Shown here one piece after another: positions 2,399-62,881 of a stretch of DNA of 64,000 nt. Source of the stretch: Tomocerus qinae (Eukaryota > Arthropoda > Collembola > Entomobryomorpha > Tomoceridae). The number at the start of each line of letters is the position of its first letter. Positions within the stretch are counted from its first letter, which is position 1. The notes beneath the pieces were generated by a model. It had not been told where the DNA came from, ran no database searches, and saw only the letters and a list, made by a program, of their open reading frames with translations. The translations under genes and the position numbers were made by a program. Location of the stretch: assembly GCA_020055645.1 (NCBI GenBank), contig CM034546.1, positions 98,146,001 through 98,210,000 of the forward strand, in the 5' to 3' direction.

Positions 2399-5302
2399 TT
2401 ATGCAGGAATTTTGAATAAATGATTTTGTAGAATTGATGAAGATCCTTTGACAGCAGCAATTGCTATTTGTTCCAAAATATCTGGTGGTAAGTGGAATCT
2501 TTTACAAAATGCTTCAAGAAAAGTGGGAATTGTTCCGCGGGCACCAACATACAATCCTATTACCTCAAATTGGTAATTAATTGAATATTTACGTTGAAGA
2601 TCCAGGATACAATCTTCGTATATGCTTTTCTTTTCTAAATCAACCGTTGTAGCTTGGTCATTAGTACTTTCAAATCTTACAGTTGGATCCAAAATCAGAG
2701 CTGTTTGTTCTAAATGATTTATGACAATAATATCAACACGTCTGTTTGAACTATTAGTAGCAACTGTTTGCACTTCTTCGAATACATCTAGACCTTTGTT
2801 TCTAAAAGCATTTGCTATGATTGTTCTGATTTGATGATGTCTGTTATTGCGATGTTGTAGACCAAAAGGACAAAAACCAAGAATGTGGGGTAAAGTTTCA
2901 TAAGTCTCACTGCATCGTCTACAGTGGGCCCCATCTTGGGATCTTCCAGGAATGGATCTACTTGCAGTCACGTTAGGTATCATCTTTAAATAATGAGTCC
3001 ACTCAGTACTAGTTAAGCCAGTCTTGAAGAAGAGAGATTTGTTGATTTTTTCACACTGCTTGAACTGACTAATTCCTTTTCCATGAAAATTAAGGGAACA
3101 CCACGACACATATTCTTTATTTCTTAGAATCTCACGGATTTTTTGGGAAACTTGTCTCACCGACAGGGAAGGTATATCAATACTCTGTACTTCCTCTTCA
3201 ATATCCATCCTCTGCAGGCATTTTTCTTGCTGTTTAAGAAGATCACGTAATTCCACTACGTATTTATTGTTAAATCTTAGCAAGGTCAGGCTGATATTAA
3301 AATTTTGTAGAGGAGCTTCCCATAACGAACGAATGATACCTAATCCTTTGTGCTTAGTACTTGAATACATACAATTATTTGGAAAATCACTCGGAAGCAT
3401 TAGCATTTCCTTAACCGAGCTTCTAATGATTTTATCAATATCTTCAAGGAAACATTTTGATAAACTGCATAGCGGTGTTGATTGTATAGAATAGACGAAT
3501 TTAGGCCAAATAAAAGTATTTACAATACTTAATTTTTGATTTGGGAATAAAAGAGGAGTTGACACAAGAGCATTAAGACAGGATGTTAAAACTTGCAAAA
3601 AATTCTTTTTGTTAAGGACAATTTCATTTGAAAAGTTGACCCCAAGATATTTGATAACATCACCTTCATGAATTGACTTAATATTTTGATTGCAAGTAAT
3701 ATCTAGATTTGTTTCCACAAGTTTTCCATTAACTATGTTGATTACATTCGTTTTTTCAACGTTTAAAGACAAGCCAATTTCATCAAACAAATTGTTGGCC
3801 ATATTGAATAGAAAAATGGCACTGGTTTTGGAGTTGGCTAGAAGGGCAGTGTCATCCATGAATCCCAATACTGCCAAATTGTTAAGAGTCTCATTGATTT
3901 TGAAACCAAATTTCTGAGATACTTCTACTTCAGCTATTTGCTTGATTATATGATCAATACTCATGTTAAATAATAGTGAAGAAAGTGGAGAACCCTGAAA
4001 AATTCCACGGGAAAATTCAATGTCATCTGATTTGTTTCCATTCACTTCTAGTCTAGTAGTATTATTAACAATGAGATTTTTGAGAATCTGTCTTATCATT
4101 TGGGGTAAATGAAGCGAATCCAATGTCAAAAATAGGTGTTTATGACCAGCCATGTCATAGGCCTTTAGAATATCCAGAAATAGAATTACCAAGTCCTTCC
4201 TTTTCGATTTGGCAAGCTTTAGACATCCATCTAATATAGATGTATTAACAAACGTCCCCGGACAATGAGCAGAACCAGATTGGAAAGGACATGTTGAGTA
4301 ATATCGACTTATTATTGAGATAATTACTCTTTCAAGCAGTCGTCTTACAGTAGAGCAAATGCTAATTGGCCTCCAATTCTTGGGATCCTTTTCACAGCCA
4401 TTTTTATATACTAAAATTGTCTTCGCCTTTTTCATAGAATCTGGAATAATATTATACTTCAAAATGATTGAAAATATTTTAGCAATTGTTTTCGGACAGT
4501 CTGCTGCTTTAATGGTTCTTGTGTAAATAAAATCAACACCAGGTGAAGAATCAGAGTTCATTCCTTTCATAGCTTCAATTATTTGTTGTTCACATATTTC
4601 TGCTGAGAATCTATTGTCTAACATATTTTGTTCAGCAAAAGTAGGCAAGGATTCATATTCATGACGAGTATGATTATTAGCAGTAGACCATCTCAACGAA
4701 AAAGAATGCTGAAGTTCTTCAATTGGAATGTTACATTTAACTTTGGACTTATTATTCATCAGGATGTCCACGCACTTTTTCCTGTTAAAATAGTAAAAAT
4801 GCTGAATTAGCTGGTTTTGGTAGTCTTGTCGGTTTCTTTTTCTCCGTTCCCTATTACTCCTTGTTGGGTTGCTTGATTGGGAAAATCCTGCATTATTAGG
4901 TTTTTTAACAAAACCAGACTTTTTCCTGATATTGTAATATCGTTTCGCAGGATGTGCTGGAGCAGGTAATTTATCCTGAGTATCTTGTAACGCAGAGATA
5001 AATTCGTCATATAATGATAGAAATGCATTTGCATCAAAATCCTCATCATTTATGAAAACATCAAATTTTTCTTCAAATTGTTTAAGTTTCTCTTTTGCTA
5101 CATCTAGTTCAGTTATTACTATAGGAGAGTCTATGACACTTGAAGATTCATTCAAATTTAACTGTGATTGAGAGTAGTGACTTGTAATAGAATTTCTAAA
5201 GCTTTCCCCATGAGCTTTTGATGTGTGAATTTTGAGTCCTCTTTCCCCTTTATAAGATTTTCCGCAGATTGTACATGTGGTGCAATGTGAATTAGTATCC
5301 AT
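2399..5302 (-). mobile_element. R2-superclade non-LTR retrotransposon (coding part)
   Basis: The coordinates cover only the open reading frame; both untranslated ends of the element are unresolved. The protein combines an N-terminal C2H2 finger, a reverse transcriptase and a C-terminal CCHC knuckle with a restriction-like endonuclease. This is the arrangement of the single-ORF R2/NeSL/R4/CRE group of LINEs. No 28S rDNA, the usual R2 target, is recognisable on either side. Confidence 0.8.
2399..5302 (-). CDS. R2-like reverse transcriptase / restriction-like endonuclease, 967 aa
   Basis: This protein would nick a DNA target and reverse-transcribe its own RNA onto the break (target-primed reverse transcription, known for R2). 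Visible parts, in order: a C2H2 zinc finger (C10, C13, H26, H31); a reverse transcriptase with motif A around D377 (FLDILKAYD), a GIFQGSPLSS motif B, and the FMDD catalytic loop at 481-484; a C-terminal CCHC knuckle (C794, C797, H806, C811); and an endonuclease segment with RVDIIV (D857) and LILDPTVRFE (D872), matching the PD-(D/E)XK-like layout. There is no apurinic-type endonuclease. The frame is fully open, and an in-frame stop 17 codons upstream supports the ATG at 5302 as start. One N-terminal finger and 967 residues is slightly short for R2, so a sister lineage is possible. Activity is unknown. Confidence 0.88.
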   Translation of the reverse strand: MDTNSHCTTCTICGKSYKGERGLKIHTSKAHGESFRNSITSHYSQSQLNLNESSSVIDSPIVITELDVAKEKLKQFEEKFDVFINDEDFDANAFLSLYDEFISALQDTQDKLPAPAHPAKRYYNIRKKSGFVKKPNNAGFSQSSNPTRSNRERRKRNRQDYQNQLIQHFYYFNRKKCVDILMNNKSKVKCNIPIEELQHSFSLRWSTANNHTRHEYESLPTFAEQNMLDNRFSAEICEQQIIEAMKGMNSDSSPGVDFIYTRTIKAADCPKTIAKIFSIILKYNIIPDSMKKAKTILVYKNGCEKDPKNWRPISICSTVRRLLERVIISIISRYYSTCPFQSGSAHCPGTFVNTSILDGCLKLAKSKRKDLVILFLDILKAYDMAGHKHLFLTLDSLHLPQMIRQILKNLIVNNTTRLEVNGNKSDDIEFSRGIFQGSPLSSLLFNMSIDHIIKQIAEVEVSQKFGFKINETLNNLAVLGFMDDTALLANSKTSAIFLFNMANNLFDEIGLSLNVEKTNVINIVNGKLVETNLDITCNQNIKSIHEGDVIKYLGVNFSNEIVLNKKNFLQVLTSCLNALVSTPLLFPNQKLSIVNTFIWPKFVYSIQSTPLCSLSKCFLEDIDKIIRSSVKEMLMLPSDFPNNCMYSSTKHKGLGIIRSLWEAPLQNFNISLTLLRFNNKYVVELRDLLKQQEKCLQRMDIEEEVQSIDIPSLSVRQVSQKIREILRNKEYVSWCSLNFHGKGISQFKQCEKINKSLFFKTGLTSTEWTHYLKMIPNVTASRSIPGRSQDGAHCRRCSETYETLPHILGFCPFGLQHRNNRHHQIRTIIANAFRNKGLDVFEEVQTVATNSSNRRVDIIVINHLEQTALILDPTVRFESTNDQATTVDLEKKSIYEDCILDLQRKYSINYQFEVIGLYVGARGTIPTFLEAFCKRFHLPPDILEQIAIAAVKGSSSILQNHLFKIPA

Positions 5303-7542
5303 ATGAACACTTGTTTTTATATAAGACGGAGGATTAGGAATCTTTATACATTAACATCCTGAGACTGGTCTTGCGACATCATGACATAATTCCAAATGAA
5401 AAAATAAAGAATTTAAGAAATTCCTCCGACACTTTTCAGAAAAAGGAAGATCCTCAGGTAGAGCAGGTCTCAACAATTCGAAAGACATAAATCCAAAGTA
5501 CAAAAACCAATGATAACACGCTTCAAAAAAAGAATTTTGAGGAGCAGAAAATTTTGCGTCCGTCTCCAAGAGAGATCTTGCTCTCCAAACCTCTTGTACC
5601 TGCCAAATAATTTTGTTTGAGTAAACAAAACATAATATTTGTCTCATGTCCCATTTTTCTGAATGCTCAGGCCATAGCTAAATAATTTTACGTCGATTGA
5701 AGACGTCTTTTAGTGATTAGAACATATACATTACTATATCTATGTATTAAATATCTAGATTTATCCCTCCAAAAATACCAGTTTTACATGGAGATTTCGT
5801 GAATTTAGCTTTGAGACATCAATGGAGAATTCCAAGTTATACATTGTTTCGTCTCAGCATAATAAAAGTGTAAAAACATTTTATGCAAAGAAAATACAGC
5901 CCTAGAGACCTCATTTGCGTATTAATTAAGCCTTAGAACTCTAGCTTTCAAGTTCAAACAAAACATGATGATGATTACATTATATAATTAGTACAATTGC
6001 ATTCAACAAATATTTCCCATATACGTAGCTGCACTATTCATGTAGAATGGAAATAAGAAGACTGGTAATTACTTTTCAGAAATGAGAGGAGAGTCTTAAA
6101 ATCGATGTCTTGGATTAGTATTTAACTTTGTGGTATGAGAGAAACGGACAACCACGCACGGGAGAAACACGACGGATTTCAACTTCAACAGGAGTTGTTT
6201 CCCGCTGCAAAGTCGTCGGCATCCGTCTGGTTTACACTCAAACATTTGAGTACGAGCTTACTTAAGGTGAATTGCCTAAGCATAGAAACCGACGTGTATG
6301 ATGTATAAAAGTTGTAGTAACCGTGACTGTTTAAGTAGTGAGCTCTGCTATGTATGAGCTGTGTGAGTTTCGCAAGTGCAATACACCGGAATAATTTACA
6401 ATTCGCAATATAGCTGAAAGAACATAATATACTATGTTAACCCTACGTGTAACTGCAAACGTATATTATAAAGCATAGCTTCTAGCTAAACCCTACATCA
6501 TTCATAACTACTTTAGCAGCTGAAGGAAGAGCTAACACGATTACTACGTACGGGTACGTATAGCAGACCAGAGATTAAACTTATAAGTTTAACTGATATA
6601 TAGTATTGTGGCCATTTAATCACAGTTAAGTTGCAATTTATGATTATACACAAGTCAGTAAACGATAAGACTCGTTATACATACATTTGCTCCAAGTACA
6701 AGCAAAAGTAATTCTTCTGTAAACATTGAACACACTATTTACCAAAATACTTTTCTGCACTTAATAAAATCGAAATTGATATAATAGTGTGCTGATTAAT
6801 GGTACAATTAAATTACGTGTAGCTCAAGTGTAAAAGTTTAGTCATTCCTGTAGACATTCGTTCAATATTGTCCGTAGTACAACATTTATGCTGCCTAACA
6901 TCCATATAATTATATTATTGTTAAATAAGTGTGAACAGATCATAGAATTATAAAATTTGTGTTTCGTTTTGTGATTCAACGGAAGTCTGTAAAGAAAGTT
7001 TTCCCTGATTTGACATTTGACTTGGGAAGGAAATATCGTAATCGATCTTAAAAACTGCTCTTGCAAATAATTAATTGCAGTGCACCAATATATAATCTCA
7101 GCATTAAATCTTAACTATATCGTATTGCAAACGTGCATTAAACAGGAACTAAATTGTTTCAGTGGTCAGTAATAGTAAAATATTACCTAAATAATACGCC
7201 CAAGTAACTTGTGAATTTTGACTTTTAGTGATCACATACCAGAAGAGCATATATACCAACGGAAACCTACTTCTACTAACTACTAACAGAAGGAACAGCT
7301 AGTAGGTGCCGAACTGCACGTTTTTGCTGTGCCACATTGCACCACATTGCTAATTTAATGTAAGTAAAGTTGTAACGTAAGTATAATACCTAAAGTTCAT
7401 TGTGCATTCCCAATCTTTTCTGTATTATCTTTCGTCTAGAGTCTGGTCTTAAAAAGTATACGCACTTCATACCTTGGTATACCTTATAGATCCGAACAAT
7501 GTATAGTTAATTAACTGACACTAAATTATATAAAATATATTT
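5303..7542. other. non-coding stretch between two transposons
   Basis: The 5' untranslated region of the minus-strand retrotransposon should occupy the left part, but no promoter or boundary is recognisable. A 98-codon minus-strand frame at 5647-5351 matches nothing I know. The rest is AT-rich with no splice-supported exon. Confidence 0.5.
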
Positions 7543-7762: not shown

Positions 7763-9712
7763 CTACAATAAATCGAGAAAAAACTGCTTTTTGGAGTTAG
7801 GGAGGTACTCAATCATTCTACGCAAATCGTTTAGCTTTTCTTGAGAAATAGGCAACTTTTGTTGATAGGCCCTAGGCAAATTCATATCAATTATCCAATG
7901 TGATTCCCAAGGCATTCTGTTTATTAATCTTGTATGTCCCGAAAAAGGGTTGAGTACGTTATGAGCAACCCAAGGACTGTCGGCGTTATGAGATTCTTTG
8001 GTTCTAATAATGGCAGGAAGATTTGACTGCATTTGAATCCAAAAATAATGGCTAACGTTGAAGCTTCTGGGCTTAGGAATGTATTCAATCAAAGCTGCAA
8101 TATTTTTGAAGTCCGTAAACTGCATTTCAACCACTGTAAACGGATTTTCAATCCTTGTTGACCTTATAACATTAATCCAATCATTAGGTGTATGAATAAT
8201 AGCCGATTTTTGATGTCTTTCAATGGACGCAAAATGACGATCGCAACAAAGAAATGAATGGCCGGACACCAAGAATTTTTGATTCACCTCAGTGAAATAT
8301 TTGTTTTGAAGCAAATATTTTAGAAGACAAACAGTGGAATAGTTGTTGTTCTGTCCTTTGCACCTGTCTGACCATAGGGTGAGAGTTCTTTCTTGAGTTT
8401 CGACTAATTTATCATATTTAGAGACAATGAAATTCAAAATACAAGATCCAATGTCAATTTGCCCACGATTTCCTTGATCTTCGTTCCAAAAGTACATTGA
8501 CGACTGGTCCGTAGCCGGAGATGTTAGTGCTAGGTTGTATGAGGAAAATTTTCTAAGATAGTACATCTCCTGGTGGCTTAATCTTGGCGATAGAAGTATT
8601 TGCTGCAAATCCAAGCATAATACTATAAAATTTGGATCCACTTTAGCTCTTGCAGTATCTTCTTTCATAGCAGAATATCCCAACTCGGCAGACATGTGAT
8701 GATGTTCTAGTTCAATTTCAGTGTTTGCTACTGCTTCATTTTCATTTATGTTGTAGTTAGAGAGCCTTGCGTAGAGCTGGTCGCACACGTTACAAGTATC
8801 TGTTTTGGGAATTCCAAATCGAAGGTTTGTCTCCCTAAATGTGTCTTTATAGGCATTTTCATAATCCATGAAATGATCTCCGTATTTCGAAACGAATAAG
8901 CGGAACATTTTGGAAGCATTAAGATCAGTCTGTAGGTATAATCTATCTGGATTACCATTGGCTCTACAGTAATGCGAGAGATACGTGGGGAAGGATTGGA
9001 TGTGCTCTTTAATCAAATCAACAGTTTCCGTTGGAATCCTATTGGGTCTGTTAAGATGACGACCTCGACCATCTTCAACTGACAAAATCCCCGCTTTCTT
9101 TTTCTTTTGAATTAGTTCTAGTCGCTTTTTTGAAATAGTGAAAACATTCATAAACGTAGCTGGACAACAAGGCAATTTCATTCCATTCTCACTTATCAAG
9201 GAATAGTAGTACGATGCTGTTTTCCTGCTGACATCAATATCCATAGTTCTCATCGCGGGGACAGACCAGTCAATCAGCGATAATAGAATATTTGATTGTC
9301 GATTGTAGTTTTCATCAGAGACTTTCCAAAAGTCATTACTTATTCTTTGCTTCTCTTCTTGAAGGAGAAGACATCCTAGTTTTTGACATTGATTTGTACA
9401 TATTTTTGCCTTAAAACGAAAGAAATGTTTATACTACAGCGCTTCACACTGTCTTTATTATGCCATAGCGCATAACTCTGTTTCATCTAAGACTATTAAT
9501 CATAAAGATAGATTTATTACCGCAGGAATCGTTATAAGGTCCTCACGAACTTTTCCATTTCGGTTGGTGTATTGTAGACCTATATTCCGCAAGAATTTCC
9601 TATTATTGTCAGCCGTTTCCCCCAGGTTGTTCTTTCTCTTTTTACCGTGATTTAATCGGTTAATATCTGCCAAAGTTAACGATTTTTTAGCAGCAGCCAT
9701 TTTTACGCTCAC
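7763..9712 (-). CDS. two-exon DDE/D-type transposase, 612 aa (DUF7869-like)
   Basis: Exon 1 is 9712-9521, ending at a GCG/GTAATA donor. Exon 2 is 9409-7763, after a TTTTAAG acceptor. The junction is phase 0 and gives 612 residues. The N-terminus has a basic segment (HGKKRKNN) and a Cys pair (KICTNQC) followed by QRISNDFWKV, as in DUF7869-type proteins. The probable RNase H-fold core has acidic residues in three conserved blocks: D331 (VLCLDLQQ), D412 (LWSDRCKGQNNN) and D454/E461 (CCDRHFASIE, preceded by SGHS). These are proposed as the catalytic triad by analogy with cut-and-paste transposases. No stop or frameshift interrupts it. The ATG at 9253 is internal to exon 2 and should not be taken as the start. 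Role: excision and insertion of the element, inferred from its position between matching TIRs. Confidence 0.8.
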
Positions 9713-39200: not shown

Positions 39201-41130
39201 GAATGAACGAGTTTTAGATGATCACGACGAACATGAAAGAAACTGTTTGTTCTAGAGTTCTAAAGAAGTCTGGGATGAGACTGTGACATACGGATTTAAC
39301 CAACTGATTCTTTTTACATTCCACAGCTGAGTTTTGGGAGAAGAAAAACTCTGAAGCGCATTTCCCCTTGACATTTTTGCAATAAAAATCGTTTCAATTG
39401 GCACTTGGAATTTTGTCGCCTTTTTATGATTCTACTTGGCTAAAAATCTTTTCTTAAAGAAACCAGCAGACTTTGACGTGTGGGCAAGAAAAGTACAAAT
39501 CACAACTTATTTTGCAGCCTTTCTGTGTCTATATGGTACCTTGTATAGCTACATAATTCTACATTTGAAACTAAAGTTAAGATTTCCAGTTCATGGAAAA
39601 TTAACCAAAAAGTCAGAAGGTGACCTTTCTTTGAATAGGATGACATTTTACTGAGTTATTCAGCATGCAACTTTGAGTAGTGGGATCTTAATGCGGTGAA
39701 AGTGGTTTACCGAAAAGACTTTTATTCGGAGAAAGTCAAAAACTGACTTAGGTAAGTTCTTGAGAAACGCTGCCGGGCACGTACTTGAGCACCTATTGTT
39801 CTAGAAATAGCTATGAATATAAAAATTGAAATGTTATTTTAGTATCTCAAAGCGTCACATTTAGATTAAAAATAAATATTGTCCTCAGTTCAGTGTTCTT
39901 AACACTTTTCTATAGCATCTTGCGTCCTGTGTAGGCAGATAGGTATTGAAATGGGTAACTTGGTATAAAATGTGAAGGTAGATTTTTTGTACTAAATTAG
40001 AGATAATCCATTGAGAAATGGGTATTGCTTTGTGGGGAATATTATAGTGACAAGATTTCCTTGAGGAGCAGTTATAAGACATGAAATAGGGTAGAAGGGG
40101 CTATAAATAATTCATGTAAATGTTAATGGGTACGTGGAGATGAATGACAGATGTCAACATTAGTATGTGTTAATGGGAATTGGGATTCAGGTCACGTAAG
40201 AGGATGTAAATAGGTGTTTGTGTACATAGTTGACTGCAGGAGAATGGATTTCGCAGGTGTAGAGACCGAAGACACATGTAAATGGTGAGCAATTTGGTGT
40301 CTATGTGATTGTGATGGTAATTCAGTTGCTCGGCTGTCTTAACCTGTTAAGTATCTGACAAGCAGACACACTTTATGTTTATGGGTATATGAATGTGTGG
40401 GAAAATAAAAGCTTTTTCCATTCAGGCGACAGCTAGGACTTGTGGAATGAATGAATACGAAATGAAGAGAGTCAAATTGATACACATGCATATGAATAAA
40501 TAGCTAATAAAAGTGAAAGAGTAAAGTGTGAATGTGTCTCTTTGAAATATTGCCGTCGAGTGCGGTGGAGTAAATTTGGAGAAAGAAGACATGGAGAGGA
40601 TAAAGTAAATTGAATTTGAAGAAAATAAAAGTAATCTGTCGGAGTAGGAAGGAAAGCGGCAATAGAAAGCGGATTTGATCAGATAAAGAAAATAATAGGA
40701 CTTTGATCTTGTCTTTGATATTTTGACAAGTCGGATGAAACTCAAAGGGAACATACATTTGGATCATTTACTGTAAATAATAAAGTGAAGGGGAAATCTG
40801 CCGCAGCGATTCGGCTAGAAGTGAAAATGAGAATGCATCGGTTTGACCTTCTGGCGGAAAGTTTAGAGAAATAAAAAAATTGGGAGGACAGTATTGCCAA
40901 CAAGGCAAGGCCGTGAAGACTCTCAAGGAAATCTAATCCCCGGTTACTGGAATGAAGAGTCGAAAGTAGAGCACCATCCGGAGCAGAGACATGACACGAA
41001 CGTGAGGATAAGAGCAGATGAAACTAAATGAAACGAAATCAAGGAGTAGTAGAAGTAGAACGAAGCCAAAGAAGATTGAGGCAATATCTATAACTTTCTG
41101 CATGCAAGATTTTGTAACAGTGCCGGGGTA
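36209..41130. other. intergenic between ACSL and the helical-repeat gene
   Basis: The ACSL 3' untranslated region begins here, with a candidate AATAAA at 37170-37175. Two plus-strand frames (38880-39068 and 39436-39654) have some coding-like composition but no splice sites or family match. From about 40,400 the plus strand becomes purine-rich, leading into the promoter of the next gene. Confidence 0.5.
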
Positions 41131-41132
41131 TG

Positions 41133-41285
41133 TATAAATGCGGAAAATAGTAAAGTGGACGGAATTCGTAGAGATCCCACTACTCCTCGGTTTTCCATGA
41201 CTACTTACTACATCCACACACACTGCCTATCTATCCTATACAGAAGATGTATTATAGCTGCGAATATTAGAAAGAGTGAAAATAG
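41133..41285 (+). promoter_or_regulatory. probable TATA box and 5' untranslated exon of the helical-repeat gene
   Basis: TATAAA at 41133-41138 in a locally GC-richer stretch is followed about 150 bases later by a consensus donor (AATAG/GTAAGTATG, exon end 41285). The matching acceptor ends at 41400 (TTCAACGTAG), giving a 115-base intron. Reading this exon in the frame of the next one gives a stop at the junction, so it is untranslated. Confidence 0.5.
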
Positions 41286-41442
41286 GTAAGTATGCTGAAC
41301 TAAACTCATCGGATCGATACGGAGAGGGAAACTTGTTCGGGCTTAATATTCCTCCAGAGTGCCAACAGATAATTTTGTGTTTTTTCTGTTTTCAACGTAG
41401 GGCAGCCCGCTTGGACCTCCTCCAGAGGTCCAGGCTTTAAAA

Positions 41443-44400
41443 ATGAAAAACTCGAGTAGCACATCACCCGAGTTGAAAATTCATGGAGTGCTGTTAAGTA
41501 AAAATTCAATTTCCCCTGTAATCTTGGAAGCTAAAAACTCTTTGGATAGTATTTACAAGGTTTCCTCCCGTCTGAATCGATCCTTTCTAGGGGAGGGGTC
41601 ATTTCTATCCTCTATCTATATTGTACCATTGATATTGGTACGTTGAGTTCACCTCTTTGTTGTCATTCTACTATTGTTGTTCGTTCGTTTGGTCTTTGTC
41701 TTATTGTTGTCATTGCCGTTCGTTTCGTTCCGTGTGGCTGAGAAAATCCGTTTAGTGAACATCTCCATACATATAATAACCTACCTTATCTATCTGTCAA
41801 TGTGTCAATCTGTATTTCTATCTACTTAAGAATTGTCTCTCTGTCTACCGCACCGTAATATAGTAAATACAATAATACATACGCTCCCCTCTCTTTTTAT
41901 CATCAAATATTATATCTATACTAACACATTCTCGATTGTCACTGGAATGCGGACTCGGAATGTTAATCTTCGCATGCACTAGTCTAATATACATATTCTG
42001 CATGTTTGTTATGCATTACTATTTGTCATGCTCTTCCAATTAACCACACTTGTGTGTACTCACCTTTCGGTATACTAGAATGAAATTAGATTACCTTAGT
42101 CACCCACTACGGTGATTCAATTTACAACTAAGTCACTACACCACTAAGTACACTACTTATTTATAGATAGGTGGGTTAAATAACAAACCCATAAATATAG
42201 TTTAATAGCTCAAGGTTTTATGTTTCCTCGTACTGTATATCAAAGAAAAAAGTAGTTCGGATATGCTTAAAACGTCATGAATGACTAAGTCTATAATTGA
42301 AAAGAGAACTCGCATGTTGTTCCCTGCATTGCGTATATAGTAGCTATGCTTTACACTATGCTTTAGTTCACCGGGTATTTTTCACTGTATTCTATTGATG
42401 TCCCTCTAATCTGTAGCGTTGCGACTACTGTCGGCTATTATTACAGTGACATTTCCCGGATGTTCATAGCTTTCCAGGACTGTATTTACTCTTCTAGCTA
42501 ATTGCAGGACTCCTTTTCATTACATTCTCTTGCTTTCTTTATCGTTTCTCTCTCTCTCTATTATTCACGAGAAACATGACCTCTATTTGGGATTGCTGAG
42601 CAATTTTATCTGTCCTGATATACAATATTTACTCTGTCTGAAAAGAGGCTAGTCTATTATTAAAGATATAATACCCGAACATGAAAAACTCTTTTTGTTT
42701 AAATATGTTTGCCGAGCATTCACGGAGACAGTAAGTATGACAAGACAACATGTCTATTCTCCTGTACAAATACTTCTCCGGTGCATTACAACAGAAGATA
42801 CACAGAAAATAGAATGCATGTGCTCGATTGACTTGACATGTGCTGTGGTTGTGTTAGTTTTGGGTTACCAGCATTCTCTTCGACTTAGGAATGTCACAAG
42901 TAGTAGTAGTGTTCTAGGTTGATAGAACCAACTTCTTTTTTACCCTGTTTGTTCGTTTCAGAGTCAGATAAGTAAAGTACTCGTATCAACACTGTTTGGC
43001 GAATTTTACTCCAGGGTAGTTCATTGCGTCGCTTTCGGTGCAGGAAAAAGAGAAAACTGTTCTAGATAGAATTTATTGTTTAATAGACTCACAGCTTGGA
43101 ATGTAACTTTATTTGAGTGCTTTTGTCTTGTTTTATCATATTTACTGATATCATTTACAACTTCTGCGGTGATGACTTGAATGGAAAATATAATACACTA
43201 CTAACGACTTATATTTTCTATTCAGTGTTTTACTGATAACAAAAGCATACTTTGACAACCACGAAATTTTCTCTTTTTGTGTAAACAGTTTGTGGGATTG
43301 GTATTTGCCTCCATTTGGCTCTTTTGTGCCTGTTTCTACTACAACATGAGGGGAAAGAAATTTAAGTTACCGTGTCAAAACCGGAACAAGTCTCCTGAAG
43401 TTGAAGATCCGCCGACGACTGTGTTGACACCTGCGATGCTCCAAGTCAGAAGGCAAGAAAGACTTGCTGAACTCCAAGCTGAGTGCTCACATTTAGAACA
43501 ACAGCTAACAGGTAGCTAAAATACATTTTCTAAAAATTTATGCACAATGCCGTTAGTGAGTCTCTTTACCTGTCACTCTTTCATCTACGACAATTTATAG
43601 AGTGAAACACACTTTATAGCTTAACTTCGTTGTAAGGTGATAAGATATTCCATTTAATATTCATGCTTCCAATTTTGTGGTTTTCCTTCACCGTGTGCTT
43701 TATATGCAATGAAAATGAACGCATGAACTTCACCTTTCCTGCCGACATTCCAGATCATCCAGATACTCTCTACCTTAATTCATTTTATTAGTCTTATGGT
43801 GAGCGAGTTTTGTGTAAAGTAAAGCAACTAGTTGGGTTAAGTAGTAGTTAGTCTAGGGCTCTTTTGAAAATGTCAACCTCAATGAATTTCCTCATCCATT
43901 AGTTGGAGTTTAATTTACCATAGAAATTTGCTATAGCATGAATTTAGCCTGAAGAGATTAAGTAGTTAGTGCTAACTCTATTAATATGTATCATTAAGTT
44001 GAAGTATATAACTACATTAGATGCAAGAGCACTACCTGTTTTAAACGTTTGGCAGCTTGAACCTAATATTTGTATCGTTTTTTCTAGAATACTATCTAAC
44101 CGCAAAGGATTGTGATAATAATATCTTTTCAGAGGAAAAGGGAACTCGTCTAACATCAAGAGCAAGTGATTCGGATCTGGAATATCTAAATAGTGACAGT
44201 CCACCTTTAAAACGTACATAGAATATTCATAGATTTTTATCCTAGGTAGAAAACCATATCTTAAGCTTTTATAATCGTTTTTAGGGAATTCGATATCTCT
44301 TCAAGATCTTCCTCAATCTGTCCTGAGACTGCGAAGAGAAAAGGAGTTGAGAACACTGAAAACAGAAATAGAATACTTGAAAAAGGTGTCGGAAATTACG

Positions 44401-46842
44401 ACGAGACGCTCACAATCCACCGGTTAGGGCTCATGCACTATTTGTACAACTGTCCGTAGAGCTTGTTGATAAATAAAACACCATATAAGACTGGGGACAC
44501 TTGATATAAAATTCATAACCTGTCTACTTTAAACAAAGAAGAATACTTACAACACTTTTGCTTTTATCCTTTTCAGAATCAGTTTCTAAAAACATCCAGC
44601 CATTATCTGTAGCAATAACAATAAGTCCTCGAGAACCTGACATTAAATTTCCCGAGAACAAAAGCAATATTTCCAGTTCGGTTGAAAACAATGTCAACAT
44701 TGAATCTGAAGGTTATACAATATATAAGTAAACTTTTCTTTTGCTTTCTTCTTATTTTATTCCATTACGACTCTTTCCTTCCAATAAACTTTTCGCTTTG
44801 TTATTCCATCAAAACATTTGCCATGAATTACCTTTCTTCTTTAGTTCTTCCGTTGTCTCAACATATTGATCAACTCAAGACGCAACGCAGATTAAATCAA
44901 ATTCGAACTGAATTGGAAGACTTGGCTATTAAGTTTATAAGCAAAGCGGATCAAGAAGGTAAATTAACTTTTTACCAGTTTTATGCCTCATGTGTTAGCT
45001 GAAAGTATACCAAAAACCTTGAAACTTCACTCCGCTTAGCTTCCAAAAAATTACCTTAACTGATTTGATCATCATGATCATACACATACTGATAGAAATA
45101 ATATCATCAAACGGTGAAAGTTTCTAATACTGTTAGTATACGGCAAGAGAAAGTTTTATAGTACGCGAAAGCTATATTATTATAAAGTAATAGTGAAAGT
45201 AGCTTTCTCTTGCTTAGATAGCTCCTTAAGCCAATTTTGTCCCATTAAATATGCACATATAGTAAAGTCAAAGAATATTTGTTCAAAATTGGATTGCTAT
45301 CTAAAATCGCGATCATAACTTCTAATAATGGATAAACAAAATTATTGCGCACAAAGTGTTGTGTTGACTAATTCGGTATTCATTTTGTAAACAATTACAT
45401 TTCTTTTGTTATTACAGCAAAGTGTTCATCTCTTCAAGACTTACCTAGAACTGCTTTAAATGTTCAAAGAGAACGGCAGCTTTTGACCATTACAAATGAA
45501 ATCGAAAAAATGAAAAAGTACAGATTGGGACACGATAGTATTGTCAATACAGGTACCGAACATAGCTGAGCTTAAAGCTAATATAGCCCTACACATTATT
45601 TAATATCATTTTGAAACTGATGGTTTTAATGCTCAAATACGTTAGTTCTGCAAGGCAAACGACGTTTGTCACAGAAAAGCTTGATTTCGCTCAAGGAGGA
45701 ACCATCACCGTCTTTCAAACAAGCTGAAGAAAAGGAGGCCGAAAAGGAAACAAAAGGTTAGCAGCATATTAAATGTAATTGTAGTTTCCATTAGTGTATT
45801 GATATTCCACAAACGTGGAAAATACCAGAAAATCTATAATCAATATAGTGTGAAGTTTAATTGCGTATTTTCCACTCCTTTGTCTCAAGGTCTTTAATGT
45901 GCGACTTTTCTCTGTGCCTTGTTTTGAGCAATATTGATACGTTTTGGCAAAGTTTTGTTATTTAGTTTGACAGGTATCATTTCTGTGCATTAAACTATAA
46001 TGTTGCAGACGTTTCTCTTTTATTGATCTGTTTTCTGCAAATTGAGTTTTACATAAATCATCCTGTGTTAATAGAGGAGTTTAATAACATACCCCATTGG
46101 CATACATGCAATAATTGGTGCACACCATGCCATGTAGCAATGGGTACATTATTGAACTCCTCTATACCTACTTAAGTGTGTGCCCATAATTTAATATTTT
46201 ATGGTAAGAGGAGCGAGCACTTAATGGATATGTATTAACGTATCCAAATCACACTGGAAAGTTCCAGAGAGTTGAATCCACGTTATATGTATATTTTCTT
46301 TCATGACTGGTATGTATAAATCTTTGTTTTCCCATAAACTTTAACAGACAATCCTGGGCCTGCGTATGGAAGTCATAACTCTAGCTTAAAGAGACAGCGA
46401 GAACAAGAGTTATACCGAGTAAGGACAGAGTTAAAGAACTTGGCTGACAAACTCAATTATACGATTGAAGGTATAAATCTCTTTTCATCCAAATATTCAG
46501 AGATATCACTTGGGAATTCATTTAATGACACCATACATGACATTTATATGAAAGAATAGATTTATTAACCACTTTCCTCAAGTAGTTATGATGTTCCATT
46601 TATTTGATTGCTAATGTATGGGTTGCTGTAACAGATCGAAGTAAATTCACATCAGGCACTAATTCAATGCGCTCATCCTTTAAAAAGCAAGCAGAAATCA
46701 TTGCAGAAGACGGTATACAATCTTTTATGAGACCACTTACTCAGTTGTTTATTTATCCAATTTATTGGTTTTCTTTCTGCCAGTAATGTAAATGTTTACC
46801 TTTGATCTTGTGCTTTTAGTGGAAACAGCCCAACATGTATGA
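41443..46842 (+). CDS. unrecognised single-pass membrane protein with repeated helical modules, 451 aa
   Basis: Coding exons: 41443-41637 (exon begins at 41401), 43289-43511, 44133-44213, 44285-44422, 44577-44711, 44845-44958, 45418-45552, 45646-45756, 46348-46470, 46635-46712, 46820-46842. All eleven join in frame. The first junction completes one transmembrane helix (about residues 54-82: SSIYIVPLIL joined to FVGLVFASIWLFCACFYY), followed by basic MRGKKFK, which suggests a cytosolic C-terminal side. No signal peptide is evident. The C-terminal part repeats a charged helix about six times with the loose pattern R-x2-RE-x-EL-x2-[LI]-x2-E-[LI]-E-x-L. Two copies begin SLQDLP; two others share RTELEDLA / RTELKNLA. 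The helices are separated by Ser/Pro-rich linkers. From the second exon to the last, every intron is phase 1. Function unknown; a membrane-tethered coiled-coil scaffold is a guess. Confidence 0.75.
46074..46162. repeat. short hairpin in an intron (MITE or pre-miRNA-like)
   Basis: Arms starting GAGGAGTTTAATAACATACC pair with the complement at the right end (AACTCCTC) with few mismatches. TA flanks both sides. The loop region also pairs partly (GGCATACATG with CATGCCATG). The size, about 89 bases, fits a tiny mariner-like MITE and also a miRNA precursor. Confidence 0.55.
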
Positions 46843-49116
46843 TGTATTTCGAGAAAGATGCTGGAGATGGATGTTTGCCTCTAAACCATTCAAAGTTGGA
46901 GAAAGTCAACACTTTTTTACTTTAACCTTTAGAAGTACCAATAATAATTCACTCAACTCAATTAGAAAAGACAGCAGACTTGACTAGACTCATTGTCAGT
47001 TCTCTCTACCGGGAGAAAAGCAACATACTCATGTGAAAAACAATACCTAAACTAAACCTATAGCGATAAATGAAAAGTCAATACAATTGATTGGTGCTTA
47101 AACACACACTAATAAGTATTAATGTATTTATAAGGAAGCCCTAAGATGTATTCAAAAAATCGAAAATACCAAGTTGACCTTATTGCTCACTTTGCTTACC
47201 GTTGTTACTATTATACTACAGATAGATATTGCCGGAAAAGAATTGTAACAAACTGTATTCAATTGTCTCTTCCACTAGAATCCCTGTGACTATTGTTGTT
47301 GTGTATATTCTTAGACTTTTATCAACTCGTTGTTACTTACCTCTACTAGATTACAATAGGTACACCTTCATTGTACATTATAATAACACTCCAGTTCCTC
47401 TGTACACGTGATAATCCGCCTCCTACTATGTCTATCCATGTATCAATTCGTGTATTTTAGAAACTATGTTCATTTTCCGTGAGTAATCCTAGCAAATCTT
47501 TATAAAAAATCTATTACAAAGCACACCATAATATTTTTTATTTAAATTGTTATTATTAGCCTACTTAAGAGTATGCTCAATTTCATGCTGTATGCATCTG
47601 GTATGCAATATTGATATTTTAATTAAGATCTACTTTATTTCGAGATTGTTACTTCGGCAGATTTAAATGTTTGTGTCAAAGGTTATTAGATTTTCGTGTA
47701 CCTGGCTAACTTAAATAAGATTTATATTATAGGATCTTATATTGTAGATTTACTTAAGTGTTGTAAAAATATTGTTACGTAGTGCATCTAACCGGTTAAT
47801 AACCTTTGTTAAGAAGCACATTTCTTCCACTTCATAAATATTACCTTACCATATAATACTACTTTTAAATCTACCTGTGTTTATAATGTAGTTTACTAAC
47901 CCTCCTAGATGATAAGTGAAATACACGACATGGCATGTTACTTAGCACGACGCTATCAAAACGGATACTGAAACAGAACTGACAACCGAATCGGTCTTAC
48001 ATTGCTCCTAGTTTATCATCAATCAAAAAAAATCAAATAAAAATATGCAACACACACTCACTACACAAGTTGTAACGAAAACAATTTTCAATTTCATCTG
48101 CATGTACCTAAAAGCACCATTTTAGGAATAATTTTACCATTTTATCTTGTTCTTTTTGTGATGGTAAAAGAGTTTGATGTGGAGAAAAATGAATAATGGA
48201 TGAACGTGACAGGAAAACGAATGTAAATGTAAGAATGTTGTCATTTTGTAATATGAAAATTCGTTATCAGTTCTCTTCATATGAAACTTTCCCAATTCTC
48301 ATTACTAAAACCAAACAGTCAAACTGACAGGAGGTATATCTGTGAAGGATTTACAGATGAAGGTACACATACGTCCATTTATGAATGTATTTGCCTTTTA
48401 TGTATGCATCATTGTATCCTGTACATAATATAACCAATATACATATACGTCAATCAAACCAATAATGATCACGATGAACTTACTACAGTAAAAACTACTG
48501 TTTTTTTGAGTATGCAATTTGGATGAAACTCTGAATCGATAATGGAAATGGTGCAATTTTGACAAATGCATGTATGTCTCTCCGTTATACATATTTACTA
48601 GATATCTTCTTTTCTTATGTATGTGAACTTTAGATAGATGCGGCAATAATAAAAATGAACACTTGCAAAAGTAGCTCAGTCTTTTATTTTTTACCCAGGA
48701 GGAAAACCACTGGTTAGCATAAATAATACGTGTGTCTGACTGTGACAAATTACAATTTCATTTAATATGCCATTAGAGCCCGGCGATAATTTTGCTCCGA
48801 TTTTCTTACCGACTCATTTTGTATTCAGGACGCATATGTGGACAAAGCCTTGTGTATTTATCTCTTCTGTAGTTAGTCAGAAAGTCAGATGTAATGAGAA
48901 AATGTTGAATTATATAATTATTCCCCTCTTTCTTATAGCTTAATTGCAATTAGGCAGCTATTTTCATTAAATTTGCACTGATGACAGGGATGACCGATAT
49001 GTATAAAGGCATTTGGGATTAGATTTATCTTAGCAGTAGCTTCAAAAGTCAATACTAGAATGATATTCCTCAGATTTTTGAAATAGAGATTCAAAGGACG
49101 AAATTAGCTTTCCAAA
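46843..49116. other. intergenic, no gene seen
   Basis: The 3' untranslated region of the helical-repeat gene starts here. A 116-codon minus-strand frame (48748-48398) has no family resemblance and no splice support. The right end is the upstream region of the ionotropic receptor; no promoter element was recognised. Confidence 0.5.
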
Positions 49117-51608
49117 ATGTGGTTTACGGTATTTATTGTTAAAATCATCTTTCCCTTAGTAAGCTCGCAACTTTTATATAACGATTTGACAGAAACATGC
49201 GACAAAGATCATAGTGAGGTCAAACTTAACCCAATCCAGAATAAAATTCAAGAAGTTCTGCTTTATAATTTCAAATGGACGAGACCACCAATAACTGCGA
49301 GAATAATAACGTACGACTCTAAAGAAAATGATGCACGATTCGATTGGAATTCCGTTTCCTGTTGGCCGAAATTATCGGGGAATAAGAGACCGACGGTCCC
49401 AAGCTTAGATCCAAGACGTTTGGGAGTGGGTGCACCTGGCAAAACAGAAATATTTCGCTACGTTATAATAATCTGGCTATTTGACGAAAGCGCAATTGAA
49501 GAACTAAGACATAACATTGCAGATACATTCAATAGACGATGGGATCGAATTGTTTTAATTGCTCCAGAAAAAATAGCTTCTAAAATGTGGTACACGTACG
49601 AGTTTCAAGATCTGAAAGAAAAAACTGTCGTTGTGTATGAAACTGGAGAAATTTGGATAGATCCGTTCGTGTTCGATAATGGTCGAATGGATAAAATCAA
49701 GAGCATGAATGAAAAAAGAGTCTTGATAACTAAAATGGGATCAAATCTCCGTGGACGACATTTAAAGGTGGCTGGATGTGAGTGGCCACCTTGGATTTTC
49801 AAGAAAAGTGGAGAAGTTGGAAGCGAAATTCTAGCTGGAAACCACTATAACATTATTAAAGCGGCCTCTGAACTATTTAACTTCACTTTTGAAACTGCTT
49901 ACTGGGGTGTTGACTACGGTCAGCATCTTGAAAACGATTCTTGGATAGGGATGTACGCCGGCGTATTTTATCCTAAATTCGGCTACCATTTAACGTAAGA
50001 CGTTTCTATTATTGCTTGCATACTTAACTATGAATTTCAAAGGTTGCAATTAATAGGATCTTTATTGTATTTGCAACATTTGGAACACCCACAGATTCTT
50101 TTTGAGGTAAGCAAATATTTCTTTAAATTTATTATTGCTCCAAAACAAGTGGTTACAATATTTCCTGTCGTCTTTAGTCACGATATCGTCTGGTCTTATG
50201 GAGTTGACTATCCCAGCACAATCACCACAGCAGATATCATATTCGTCACAGGTCATCCTCGGACAGAAATCCCATGGAACGCTTTCATGCTGCCTTTTAC
50301 AGAAACTGTATGGGTGTGGACAATCGCCTCGTTTATTGTTCTCGGAGTTTTACAAGGGTAAAACTGTTAACATCTGAATAATAATCATTCTTTCATTCTC
50401 ATCAGCCTCTAATTTTTACTATTGGATTTTCCTCATACAGATTCATAATGTGGCTGAGGGTAGGGAGAAAATGGAAATACATAGTTTATGACAGTGCCGT
50501 ATTTTTACCTTATGCAATGGCGACAGAACAAGGGCTGTGCGATATTCCACCTGGAGTCAGATTGACATGTTTAGTATGGCTGTTAGGATGTACGGTTCTA
50601 GGAACTGGATACCGCAGTACTTTGCGAGCAAATATCGCATTCCCGAAACCAGAAGTAATTCCGCTAACATATGAAGAACTAGGTAATAGACCTGACTATT
50701 TTACAACATTACACACCCAAGGCGCTGTAGAAACAACCTTCATCAAGGAGACACAAACTCCAGCAGTTGTCAAAATAAGGAGGACCATAAAATATGAAAA
50801 AGACGAGGAAAAATGTTTGTACAATACAATTTTGACACGGAAAACTGCCTGCATTACATGGTCACCTTTTATTGAGCAAGTTATCGCTAGGAGTTTCACC
50901 AAAAACAGTAAAGTTGACCCTCTGCTCTATTCCACCAATGCTGCGAAAAGGGTCATGATGTCTTTAGCCTTTCAAAAGAATTCTATGTTTGTCGACTCCT
51001 TTTTTGGAATAACAGCTGGAACTGCAGAATCGGGAATTTTACGGAAATGGGAATTGGAAGTTAATCAGGATTTCAAAGATATGGGCGTTTTGAAAATTAA
51101 AGGAATGAAAGGTAGTGCTCTGTATAATGAACTGGAACGTCTGGAAAATAAAGACGATGGTGACAAACCTCTGACCACTGGCAATTTGAAGATCGTATTC
51201 GGAATACTGCCTCTAGGGTTTGTTTTTGGTGTCGTGCTCTTTGGTATTGAAAAGCTCTATTGGAGCTGTCAAACAAATAAACCTTTCTGGTCACGCACTT
51301 GGTCTCGCTACCAAAACTACAGGAATAAAATCTTCCGGCCATCCAACAAAGGTTTACAAGTAGATCCCGAAAGGAATTCTTCTCCCGTCAGATATGTGTC
51401 TGTGAAAAGCAATTTTGAACATTCATTCCCAAAAAGTTCACCTGAACTGGTAAATCTAGGAGTACGAAGTAAAGGTTTTGACATAAGATACGGTGATATT
51501 GCAAGCAATGAAAATATGACCACTTTGCAGAGGAGGAGGTCGGTTCATCAGCAGAATAAACCCAATTCACCTTTTCCTTCTTACGAAGATAGTTTGGGAA
51601 AAGTTTAA
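49117..51608 (+). CDS. divergent ionotropic receptor (IR), 741 aa
   Basis: IRs are ligand-gated cation channels of the iGluR superfamily used in chemosensation in protostomes. Exons: 49117-49994, 50178-50357 and 50441-51608; the phases agree (2, 2). A signal peptide is likely (MWFTVFIVKIIFPLVSSQ). The ligand-binding lobe includes CEWPPWI and GNHYNIIKAA in exon 1, and VDYPSTITTAD after the first junction. TM1 is about residues 336-356 (TVWVWTIASFIVLGVLQGF). The pore region (FLPYAMATEQGL) leads into TM2 (VWLLGCTVLGTGYRSTLRAN), and TM3 is about 603-625. A long Ser/Arg-rich cytoplasmic tail of over 100 residues follows. The canonical glutamate-binding residues are not evident, as in divergent IRs, and it is not IR25a or IR8a. 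Most of intron 1 is open in one frame; skipping it gives the better alignment. Confidence 0.88.
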
Positions 51609-52493: not shown

Positions 52494-55350
52494 ATGGAAG
52501 AAGGAAATTTTTTACTGACTGTAAGTCCTCCAGGTGAAAGTGAGTTTGCTATGAAAAGGAGTCGACGAACATCTGTCGCTTATGTAGATTTTCTTACCAC
52601 GCCCCAAGATCTTCCTTGTGATTACGGAGATGATAGAAGACCATCAGTTCCAATTTATCCTTACGAGGACGAGTAATTCAGAATACATCAAACATACGTA
52701 TTAAATGGCATAAATTCATCTCTGATGGAGCACAAGCTCAAGTAGTACTGGCGATTACATAAAATTAAGCAGACAAACATCTGAATACGATTTTATATGG
52801 TTTTAGAGAGCAAGAAAAAAAAGAAACCATTGATGACACAATTTTTAACATGTTCCAAGATGACAATGGAGAACTGCTCGTGGGAAAGTTTTTAGCAGTG
52901 AGTTTTTGTTGCATCTGTAGTATATTAATAATATTTACATTAATTTTACCCGAAATTGCATGCAAAGGGGTGTATAGTTTAAATCTTGATATCTTGAAAA
53001 TACCCGAATGCTACTCTTGATTACTGAAAATTAATTTGTATGAAAGAGTTTAGAAAATTCGGGATTAAAAAGAACTGACCAGAGGCTTCAAGAGTTGTTC
53101 CAAAATCTTCGTCGGCTGCACAAGGATGAAGAAATCAGATTTCGAGGACGCAATGGAGGGGAATTTGTGGCTTCTATTGAAACATTACGAATTGACAGAG
53201 AAACCTTCAAGGATATCATTTTTCCCAACATAATTATTATTTCAGGTGTTTTTCGTCATCAGTTTGTCATTCCTAAATTCGACGTATTTTGTCAACATAT
53301 CGAAGAATTGTATCTGGAATGTAATGAAATTACGAGTGGAAATATTCCTACAAATTATATCAAGCAAGTTGCCAAAATGGAACCAAATTATTGGGGCGTC
53401 AGCCTTTGTACAATTGATGGACAAAGATACTCCATCGGAGATACAAATGTCCCGGTCCCACTACACTCATGCAGGTAATAATAGGAATAATCAAACAATT
53501 TTATCACAACAATAATAATAGAAACCCTGAAAAAATTGTCTTATTTTCAGCAAGCCGTTTGCTTATGGCATTGCTTTGAACGAGCTCTCAAAGGAAGTTG
53601 TACATAAATATGTAGGACAAGAGCCTTCGGGACATATTTTCAACGAATTGGTTCTTGATAGCCACAGTAAGAAACATAGAATAACATATCCATAATTCTG
53701 CTTCAATCTGCATCTAATTATGCACATGTCTCTTGCTTTAAGCAATGCGTTCATGTGGGTACACGTGCTAATTTTTTGCAATTTGTTTCATATTCATCAA
53801 TGGAAATTAAAACCAAGATCGACCTCACAATCCAATGGTGAATCTTGACTTTCTAATTTTTAACCTTCACATATTGAATATTGAATATCAAATTCAAAGT
53901 TAAATGTATCTCTAGATCAACGCAGGAAGCATTATGGTCCATGCTTTGTTACAGCAGCTGGCAAGACCGGATGTTGCATCATGGGAGAAATACACTTTGA
54001 TCCACGAATCTTTTTTGGTGAGATCTAGTTTGTTTTAAATCAGTTTTCGCAATGCAAATGTAAATTGAGTTTCATGACAATTTTATCTGATTACACAGAA
54101 AATGAGTGGCCATGAATACATTGGATTTAACAATGCTGTTTTTCTTGCCAAGAAGGAAGCTTCCGACAGAAATTTAGCATTGGGGCATTACATGAAAGAA
54201 TACAATTGCTTTCCTCCGGGTACTGATCTCAATGATTGCATAGACTTCTATTTACAGGTCATTTACATATTCTATCTACATCTACTACTACATTAATGTC
54301 AATGTAACCATTATCTGGATTATTTGCTTCTGATTTCCTCACACAAAAGCAAATAAAATTGCTTGAGAAGTTTTTATGGTATTTTATGCTGGTAAACGTA
54401 TTTAGTTAATTATTCTATGATTGTATTATTATCATATAGACGACAAGTTTAGAGGCAACCTGTGAGGTATTTTCAGTGATGGCGGCTACCCTTGCAAATG
54501 GAGGAGTTTGTCCCACGACAGGGGAAATAGCCTTGAAAGGCGATGTCGTTGCAGATGTGTTGTCGATAATGCACTCATGTGGGATGTTTGAATATTCAGG
54601 AAAATTCGGTTTCCAAGTAGGACTGCCTGCCAAATCGTGTATAGGAGGATTAATTATCCTTGTTGTACCGAATGTCTGTGGAATGGCATTATGGTCACCT
54701 AGATTGGATTACTTCCGAAATTCTGCTCGGGGAGTTGCATTTTGCAAAGTAAATTATGTCGTTTTAATTTTTTACATGTAATTTTTGTGTCTATGTAGTC
54801 TATGAAGTATTTTTAAGAGCAAAATTGTCTATTTCAGAAACTTGTGAAAGTTTTCAATTTCCATACATACGACAACATGAAGTTTACAACGGATAAAATC
54901 GACCCAACAAAGTTGAATAGGGATACAAAGGGATCAAATGTTACCAGTTTACTATTTTCTGCAGCACATGGAGATTTGGATTCAATCACTAGGCTTCATT
55001 TATCGGGGGTTGATATGGGGCTGTATGATTGTGACGGACGGACAGCATTACATTTAGCTGCTTGCGAAAATAAGTATGAAGTCGCCGACTATCTTTTGAA
55101 GATTTGCGGTGTCAATCACAGAAGAAGGGATAGGTAATTAAAAAATTTCAAAAGTTATTTTCTAGAAACAAGTGTTGATGTTTTTATTTATTTAACCCTG
55201 CCATTTCTTTCTAACTACAGATTTGGTCACACGCCTTACGATGATGCCATAACGTGTGGCAACGCAGAAATTGCTGAACTACTGCGAACTTGGGTTCCTC
55301 GTCCACATCGAATCTCAGTATCAGACCCCGGGAGAACAAATGAACCTTAG
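52494..55350 (+). CDS. GLS: glutaminase with ankyrin repeats (GLS/KGA type), 609 aa
   Basis: Hydrolyses glutamine to glutamate and ammonia. Exons: 52494-52672, 52807-52897, 53047-53474, 53551-53666, 53818-53837, 53916-54017, 54099-54257, 54440-54748, 54838-55133, 55221-55350. All junctions keep frame. An N-terminal EF-hand-like region ([11 protein letters not shown], then [18 protein letters not shown]) is followed by the serine-dependent beta-lactamase-like domain. There the S-x-x-K pair is S231/K234 (HSCSKP), with QEPSG, HNPM-INAGS (N280) and LPAKS. The ankyrin repeats follow ([11 protein letters not shown], then FGHTPYDDA). Exon 5 has only 20 bases. The N-terminus is acidic and has no mitochondrial presequence. 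An acceptor 16 bases before the ATG shows an upstream exon that may supply one, or this may be a cytosolic form. The acceptor before 53047 (GTATGAAAG) is weak but the alignment demands it. Confidence 0.95.

Positions 55351-56143: not shown

Positions 56144-62881
<6,738 letters not shown>

Follow-up and report, generated by a model that had tools for sequence, protein, structure and literature searches.

The 64,000-nucleotide window that we analyzed from the collembolan Tomocerus qinae comes from 98.15-98.21 Mb on a contig of 140 Mb, in an assembly of 334 Mb and 115 contigs, and carries on its forward strand what looks like a real, uncharacterized protein-coding animal gene. Its 11 coding exons (41443-46842, E2 to E12 in Table 1) join into one open frame of 451 residues, exactly the length given in an earlier note on this DNA, and encode one predicted transmembrane helix followed by five copies of a related charged helix. 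GT-AG ends bound all 10 introns. The first of them is in phase 0 and the remaining nine, in succession, are in phase 1, as the earlier note had described for the introns from exon 2 onward. Its modules are also frame-neutral as claimed, with all eight internal exons (E4-E11) being phase 1-1 and having lengths of 78-138 bases that are multiples of three. The segment marked in the earlier note starts at 41133, where we found a TATAAAT sequence that is not coding; the frame opens with the ATG at 41443 and is preceded by an in-frame TAG at 41398-41400. A candidate upstream coding exon (ATG 41197, donor 41285) was rejected because it breaks the frame, and if it is an exon it would be 5' untranslated.

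Table 1. Coding exons of the gene, with positions in the window
Exon	Position	Strand	Content
E2, first coding exon	41443..41637	+	N-terminal 65 residues and start of the hydrophobic stretch; weakly supported; acceptor at 41401 in top 4.4% of AGs
E3	43289..43511	+	predicted transmembrane helix, basic juxtamembrane stretch, helix copy 1 (43409-43510); phase 0 in, phase 1 out
E4	44133..44213	+	Ser/acidic linker exon, phase 1-1; weak donor AAC/GTACAT, top 31% of GTs
E5	44285..44422	+	SLQDLP and helix copy 2, phase 1-1; homologous to E8
E6	44577..44711	+	Ser/Asn-rich linker exon, phase 1-1; acceptor in top 0.6% of AGs, donor in top 21% of GTs
E7	44845..44958	+	helix copy 3 (RTEL), phase 1-1; related to E10 by shuffling, not by tblastn
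E8	45418..45552	+	SLQDLP and helix copy 4, phase 1-1; homologous to E5
E9	45646..45756	+	charged linker exon with RRLS, phase 1-1; weak acceptor, top 45% of AGs
E10	46348..46470	+	helix copy 5 (RTEL, LADK), phase 1-1; related to E7 by shuffling, not by tblastn
E11	46635..46712	+	linker exon, phase 1-1
E12, last coding exon	46820..46842	+	VETAQHV and stop; 7 codons including the stop, too short for codon scoring

The training set for codon use comprised just four of the window's open frames (two from one gene, one from the glutaminase gene downstream, and one of transposon type), and stop-free stretches from 10-40 kb served as controls. All nine of exons E3-E11 lay above the control mean and were equaled by 3.8-23% of the controls, a mild signal that is weak for any exon singly. 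Splice sites were scored with metazoan frequencies that had not been trained, and ranked against every AG or GT in the window. Nineteen of the 21 sites (11 acceptors, including that of E2, and 10 donors) were in the top quarter, the exceptions being the E4 donor and the E9 acceptor. We also compared the exons with 363 phase 1-1 pseudo-exons (minimum 60 bases) from 47.2 kb taken as non-coding, for which both strands were used and also the opposite strand of this gene. None of them equaled any of E3-E10 jointly on acceptor, donor, length, and codon score, although E3 is itself phase 0 at its start, and one equaled E11. On a looser sum score, equally good pseudo-exons occurred 0.53 (E4), 0.55 (E10), and 0.97 (E11) times per kb and at most 0.11 times per kb for the other six exons. 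These three exons, E4, E10, and E11, therefore rest more on the reading frame, and E10 also on homology. When we listed nearby alternative splice sites for E5-E12, stronger acceptors for E9 gave an in-frame start at 45655 and an out-of-frame one at 45675, and a higher-scoring in-frame acceptor would move the start of E11 to 46656, making the exon 21 bases shorter. For E5, the alternative site at 44246 would introduce an in-frame stop, as read by eye.

To compare the exons with each other, we shuffled 2000 times each of the 34 pairs, out of 45, that scored at least 18 and left the remaining 11 unshuffled. E5 and E8 share 16 of 30 residues (score 84), no shuffle did as well, and tblastn against the window recovered the match at an expectation value (E) of 5.5e-5; the likeness between the exons at 44285 and 45418, pointed out in the earlier note, is thus confirmed. 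The E7/E10 score of 48 was also reached by none of 2000 shuffles. Weaker helix pairs were E5/E10 (2 of 2000 shuffles), E3/E5 and E8/E10 (5 each), E5/E7 (12), and E3 with E7, E8, or E10 (62-71). Of the 10 possible combinations of the five helix exons, nine were thus equaled in no more than 71 shuffles; the tenth, E7/E8, was equaled in 392. Pairs with linker exons came as close (E10/E11, 28; E6/E11, 73), and a sixth helix in E11, matched by eye, was dropped as weak on the strength of its comparison with E10. We counted five copies, not the "about six" of the earlier note. Allowing for all 45 pairs, the homology of E5 and E8 appears secure, that of E7 and E10 is probable by shuffling, and the remaining pairs would count only as a group. 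Second codon positions were the most conserved in E5/E8 (22 of 30, versus 18 and 17) and in three further pairs (12/15, 15/23, and 17/23), which is expected of coding sequence, though the alignments had been picked on protein likeness. In the rest of the window, tblastn found no convincing further copy (best E 0.11).

Together with their order, the two helix pairs suggest that a three-exon block, E5-E6-E7, was probably copied to E8-E9-E10, although the middle exons E6 and E9 show no similarity (1250 of 2000 shuffles were as good). Growth by exon duplication, as the earlier note had proposed, is well supported for E5/E8 and probable for E7/E10.

Each helix copy covers about 25 residues and follows the pattern L.[VL].R...L..[LIV]..E[ILC]..[LM], the first three places of which hold in four of the five copies. 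In an ungapped alignment, all five copies have Leu in column 11, an aliphatic residue in column 14, Glu in column 17, an aliphatic residue or Cys in column 18, and Leu or Met in column 21. In six columns, four or more of the five copies have a hydrophobic residue, a result that none of 20,000 row shuffles reached; the test is generous, as the register was set by eye (E7 being anchored at its right-hand end) and this step was not repeated in the shuffles. Four of the six, columns 11, 14, 18, and 21, are heptad-spaced and hydrophobic in every copy. In this the copies resemble leucine zippers and short coiled coils, from which they differ in having about two heptads each, in being split by linkers, and in having no significant match in PDB.

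Hydropathy exceeded 1.6 in one stretch only (19 scoring windows, centered on residues 57-76), in line with the single transmembrane helix of the earlier note. We place this helix at about residues 58-83, followed by a long, charged, Ser-rich tail, and the basic stretch RGKKFK stands directly after it. Positive residues flanking a membrane helix mark its cytoplasmic side (the positive-inside rule), and the position of RGKKFK suggests that the C-terminal tail would be cytoplasmic. We ran AlphaFold2 on the single exons E3 and E5. From its single sequence, E3 was predicted to form a helix at residues 2-21 with a predicted local distance difference test score (pLDDT) of about 90, corresponding to the transmembrane helix, and a helix at residues 55-73 with low confidence; the mean pLDDT of this prediction was 64. 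For E5, with an alignment of the remaining four copies, a helix was predicted at residues 10-44 (mean pLDDT 86). A helix is thus predicted for one copy of the repeat. At E ≤ 0.001, the transmembrane exon E3 has one match in its own 334-Mb genome.

We searched for a family to which the protein might belong. The whole protein reached no Pfam cut-off, and the hits at E up to 10, a range in which HMMER filters drop most matches above 0.1, were Anillin_N (PF16018; E 0.011, 16.9 bits; residues 99-142) and NumbF (PF06311; E 0.15, 12.9 bits; residues 148-217) only. The N-terminal 139 residues alone gave Anillin_N (E 0.035), LapA_dom (0.047), and DUF4233 (0.14), all below cut-off, and four single helix exons had no Pfam match. 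If the protein were related to Numb or anillin, SPPLKRNSISLQDLP would correspond to the NumbF-like phosphorylation region and LTP..RRQERLAEL to the anillin N-terminus. We consider this very improbable: these resemblances are short and local, both scores are far under the curated cut-off of 27 bits, neither spans the repeat array, and the Pfam scan revealed no other Numb or anillin domain. A KCNE-like single-pass channel subunit, considered for an N-terminal resemblance, was dropped, as no KCNE family was among the Pfam hits listed at E up to 10. Searches of PDB sequences with the whole protein gave 0 matches, and neither viral contigs searched with E3 alone nor prokaryote genomes searched with the whole protein gave a confirmed match, as expected for an animal gene. 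The literal string SLQDLP, the sole literature test of the sequence, led to no paper.

The earlier note had recognized no family, which holds for the Pfam cut-offs and PDB sequences, eukaryotic protein collections lying outside this comparison. The absence of a Pfam family within that scope is also what one would see if the gene were a lineage-specific orthologue of an annotated but uncharacterized animal protein, with charged helical repeats under low constraint and a fixed number of constitutively spliced exons. The copies are 24-39% identical to E5, and the duplications are old, with no E5/E8 match at the DNA level when 41001-47000 was compared with itself by blastn (E up to 1), both of which fit such a protein. 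The invariant Leu and Glu and the hydrophobic columns that the five copies have kept point to constraint on the helix itself, however, and we regard this explanation as a substantial possibility for which an even chance would be too generous.

The reading that we tentatively favor, while giving it somewhat less than an even chance, is a single-pass membrane protein with a cytoplasmic tail in which exon duplication has built up a multivalent scaffold of helices, because repeated short charged helices, conserved hydrophobic columns, Ser-rich linkers, and a membrane anchor together make a plausible docking design. We infer a scaffold function in which the anchor would hold the long C-terminal tail on the cytoplasmic side, as five related helices joined by Ser-rich and probably disordered linkers. 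Each helix would present a short leucine-zipper-like face for self-association (oligomerization) or as a docking site, the presence of several would render the tail multivalent, and phosphorylation at RxxS/RRxS and SP sites may tune it. Growth of the array would have come from copying phase 1-1 exons, among them probably the block E5-E7, copied to E8-E10. Since these exons are phase 1-1, helices can be added or skipped without a break in the frame, and exon skipping that yields forms with different helix numbers is possible as far as phase is concerned. A wider claim, that the gene stands for an undescribed family of membrane-anchored helix-array scaffolds, platforms whose valency is tuned by skipping or duplicating phase-1 exons, through splicing as well as evolution, seems to us decidedly unlikely. 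Building a docking platform by copying helix exons would be uncommon, though with precedent. Should transcripts or species differ in helix number, the gene would offer a compact natural example of how exon duplication and splicing adjust binding valency at a membrane; otherwise, this would be an uncharacterized but ordinary membrane protein.

Several results weigh against a helix scaffold grown by duplication. The helical periodicity of hydrophobicity stood out in E10 alone among the single copies (152 of 5000, versus 645 for E3, 1732 for E5, 1866 for E7, and 3779 for E8), and the joint test was not significant (2651 of 10,000). As these tests are weak, the leucine-zipper face is a reading of the conserved columns, and each copy is short for a coiled coil that is stable alone. 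The relation between the exons at 44845 and 46348 (E7 and E10), claimed in the earlier note, stood up to shuffling but not to tblastn, where its E values of 0.34 and 1.3 are at chance level and no better than those of unrelated hits from that search (0.11 at 58800 and 0.34 at 53065). Because charged helices can look alike by chance, similarities apart from E5/E8 may be convergent. A profile of the helix had 12 matches in PDB, none significant, led by FOSW (E 0.1) and merlin (0.12); coils were among them, with zippers and designed coils mixed with unrelated proteins such as Cas10 and release factor 2. E4, E10, and E11 have unremarkable splice scores, and the codon use of E2 is not coding-like, with 59% of control stretches doing as well.

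The codon use of E2 and the splice scores of E11 also bear on whether the model is partly wrong, such that the helix exons (E3, E5-E8, E10) are real and E2, and perhaps E11-E12, are mis-assigned, the protein having another N- or C-terminus. E12 cannot be scored for codon use, and a higher-scoring acceptor at 46784 would make the protein end in VM, not VETAQHV. At the other end, the hydrophobic end of E2 continues in frame into the transmembrane helix of E3, the E2 donor is good (top 3.9% of GTs), and the frames of at least 45 residues between 36.2 and 41.4 kb contain no obvious ectodomain by eye, no family search of them having been made. We hold such mis-assignment to be unlikely and the N-terminus encoded by E2 to be plausible.

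We compared the gene with two known systems of exon organization. Schistosome micro-exon genes (MEGs) are built largely of very short symmetric exons and have a secreted design. The exons of the present gene are symmetric too, but at 78-138 bases the internal exons E4-E11 are not micro-exons, which sets the gene apart from MEGs, and its product has an internal transmembrane helix. Lengthening of a repetitive protein by exon duplication is already known from the PEVK exon arrays of titin, in which alternative splicing also alters how long the repetitive segment is (PMC6469411). Those arrays encode Pro-Glu-Val-Lys springs in a giant muscle protein, whereas here five helical copies stand behind one membrane anchor and variable splicing is only a possibility.

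The intron between E9 and E10 contains a near-perfect hairpin (46071-46165) flanked by TA; the segment 46066-46170 folds with a minimum free energy of -42.8 (z -6.1). The hairpin had no Rfam match at gathering scores. A second genomic copy (G000:C5, locus L003) has the outer arms in common with it but not the middle, and a microRNA precursor was set aside on this ground. Shared outer arms with a differing middle are expected of an inverted-repeat element, and the hairpin is probably an old small transposon of this kind rather than a microRNA.

The gene content of the window is that of an animal, and the neighboring genes, which look protostome-like, are on the same strand. Upstream lies an acyl-CoA synthetase gene extending over about 21.4-36.2 kb, as judged by eye from its open frames, of which the frame at 34074-34355 matches AMP-binding in Pfam (E 3.9e-23). 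Downstream are the glutaminase gene, with Pfam matches to EF-hand_14 (E 1.8e-15) and Glutaminase (E 2.2e-8), and a gene of a few large open frames at 49108-51608 (+), which by resemblance we take to be ionotropic-receptor-like; the two frames of it that were scanned matched no Pfam model, and it is perhaps a divergent member of its kind. Two unbroken open frames lie on the reverse strand near the start of the window. One (7766-9433, 556 residues) contains DUF7869 (E 3.9e-14) and is presumably of transposon type, and the other (2402-5350, 983 residues) encodes a reverse transcriptase domain (RVT_1, E 1.1e-26) and begins close to a stretch that resembles a zinc finger, and we assume it to belong to an R2-like, non-long-terminal-repeat element.

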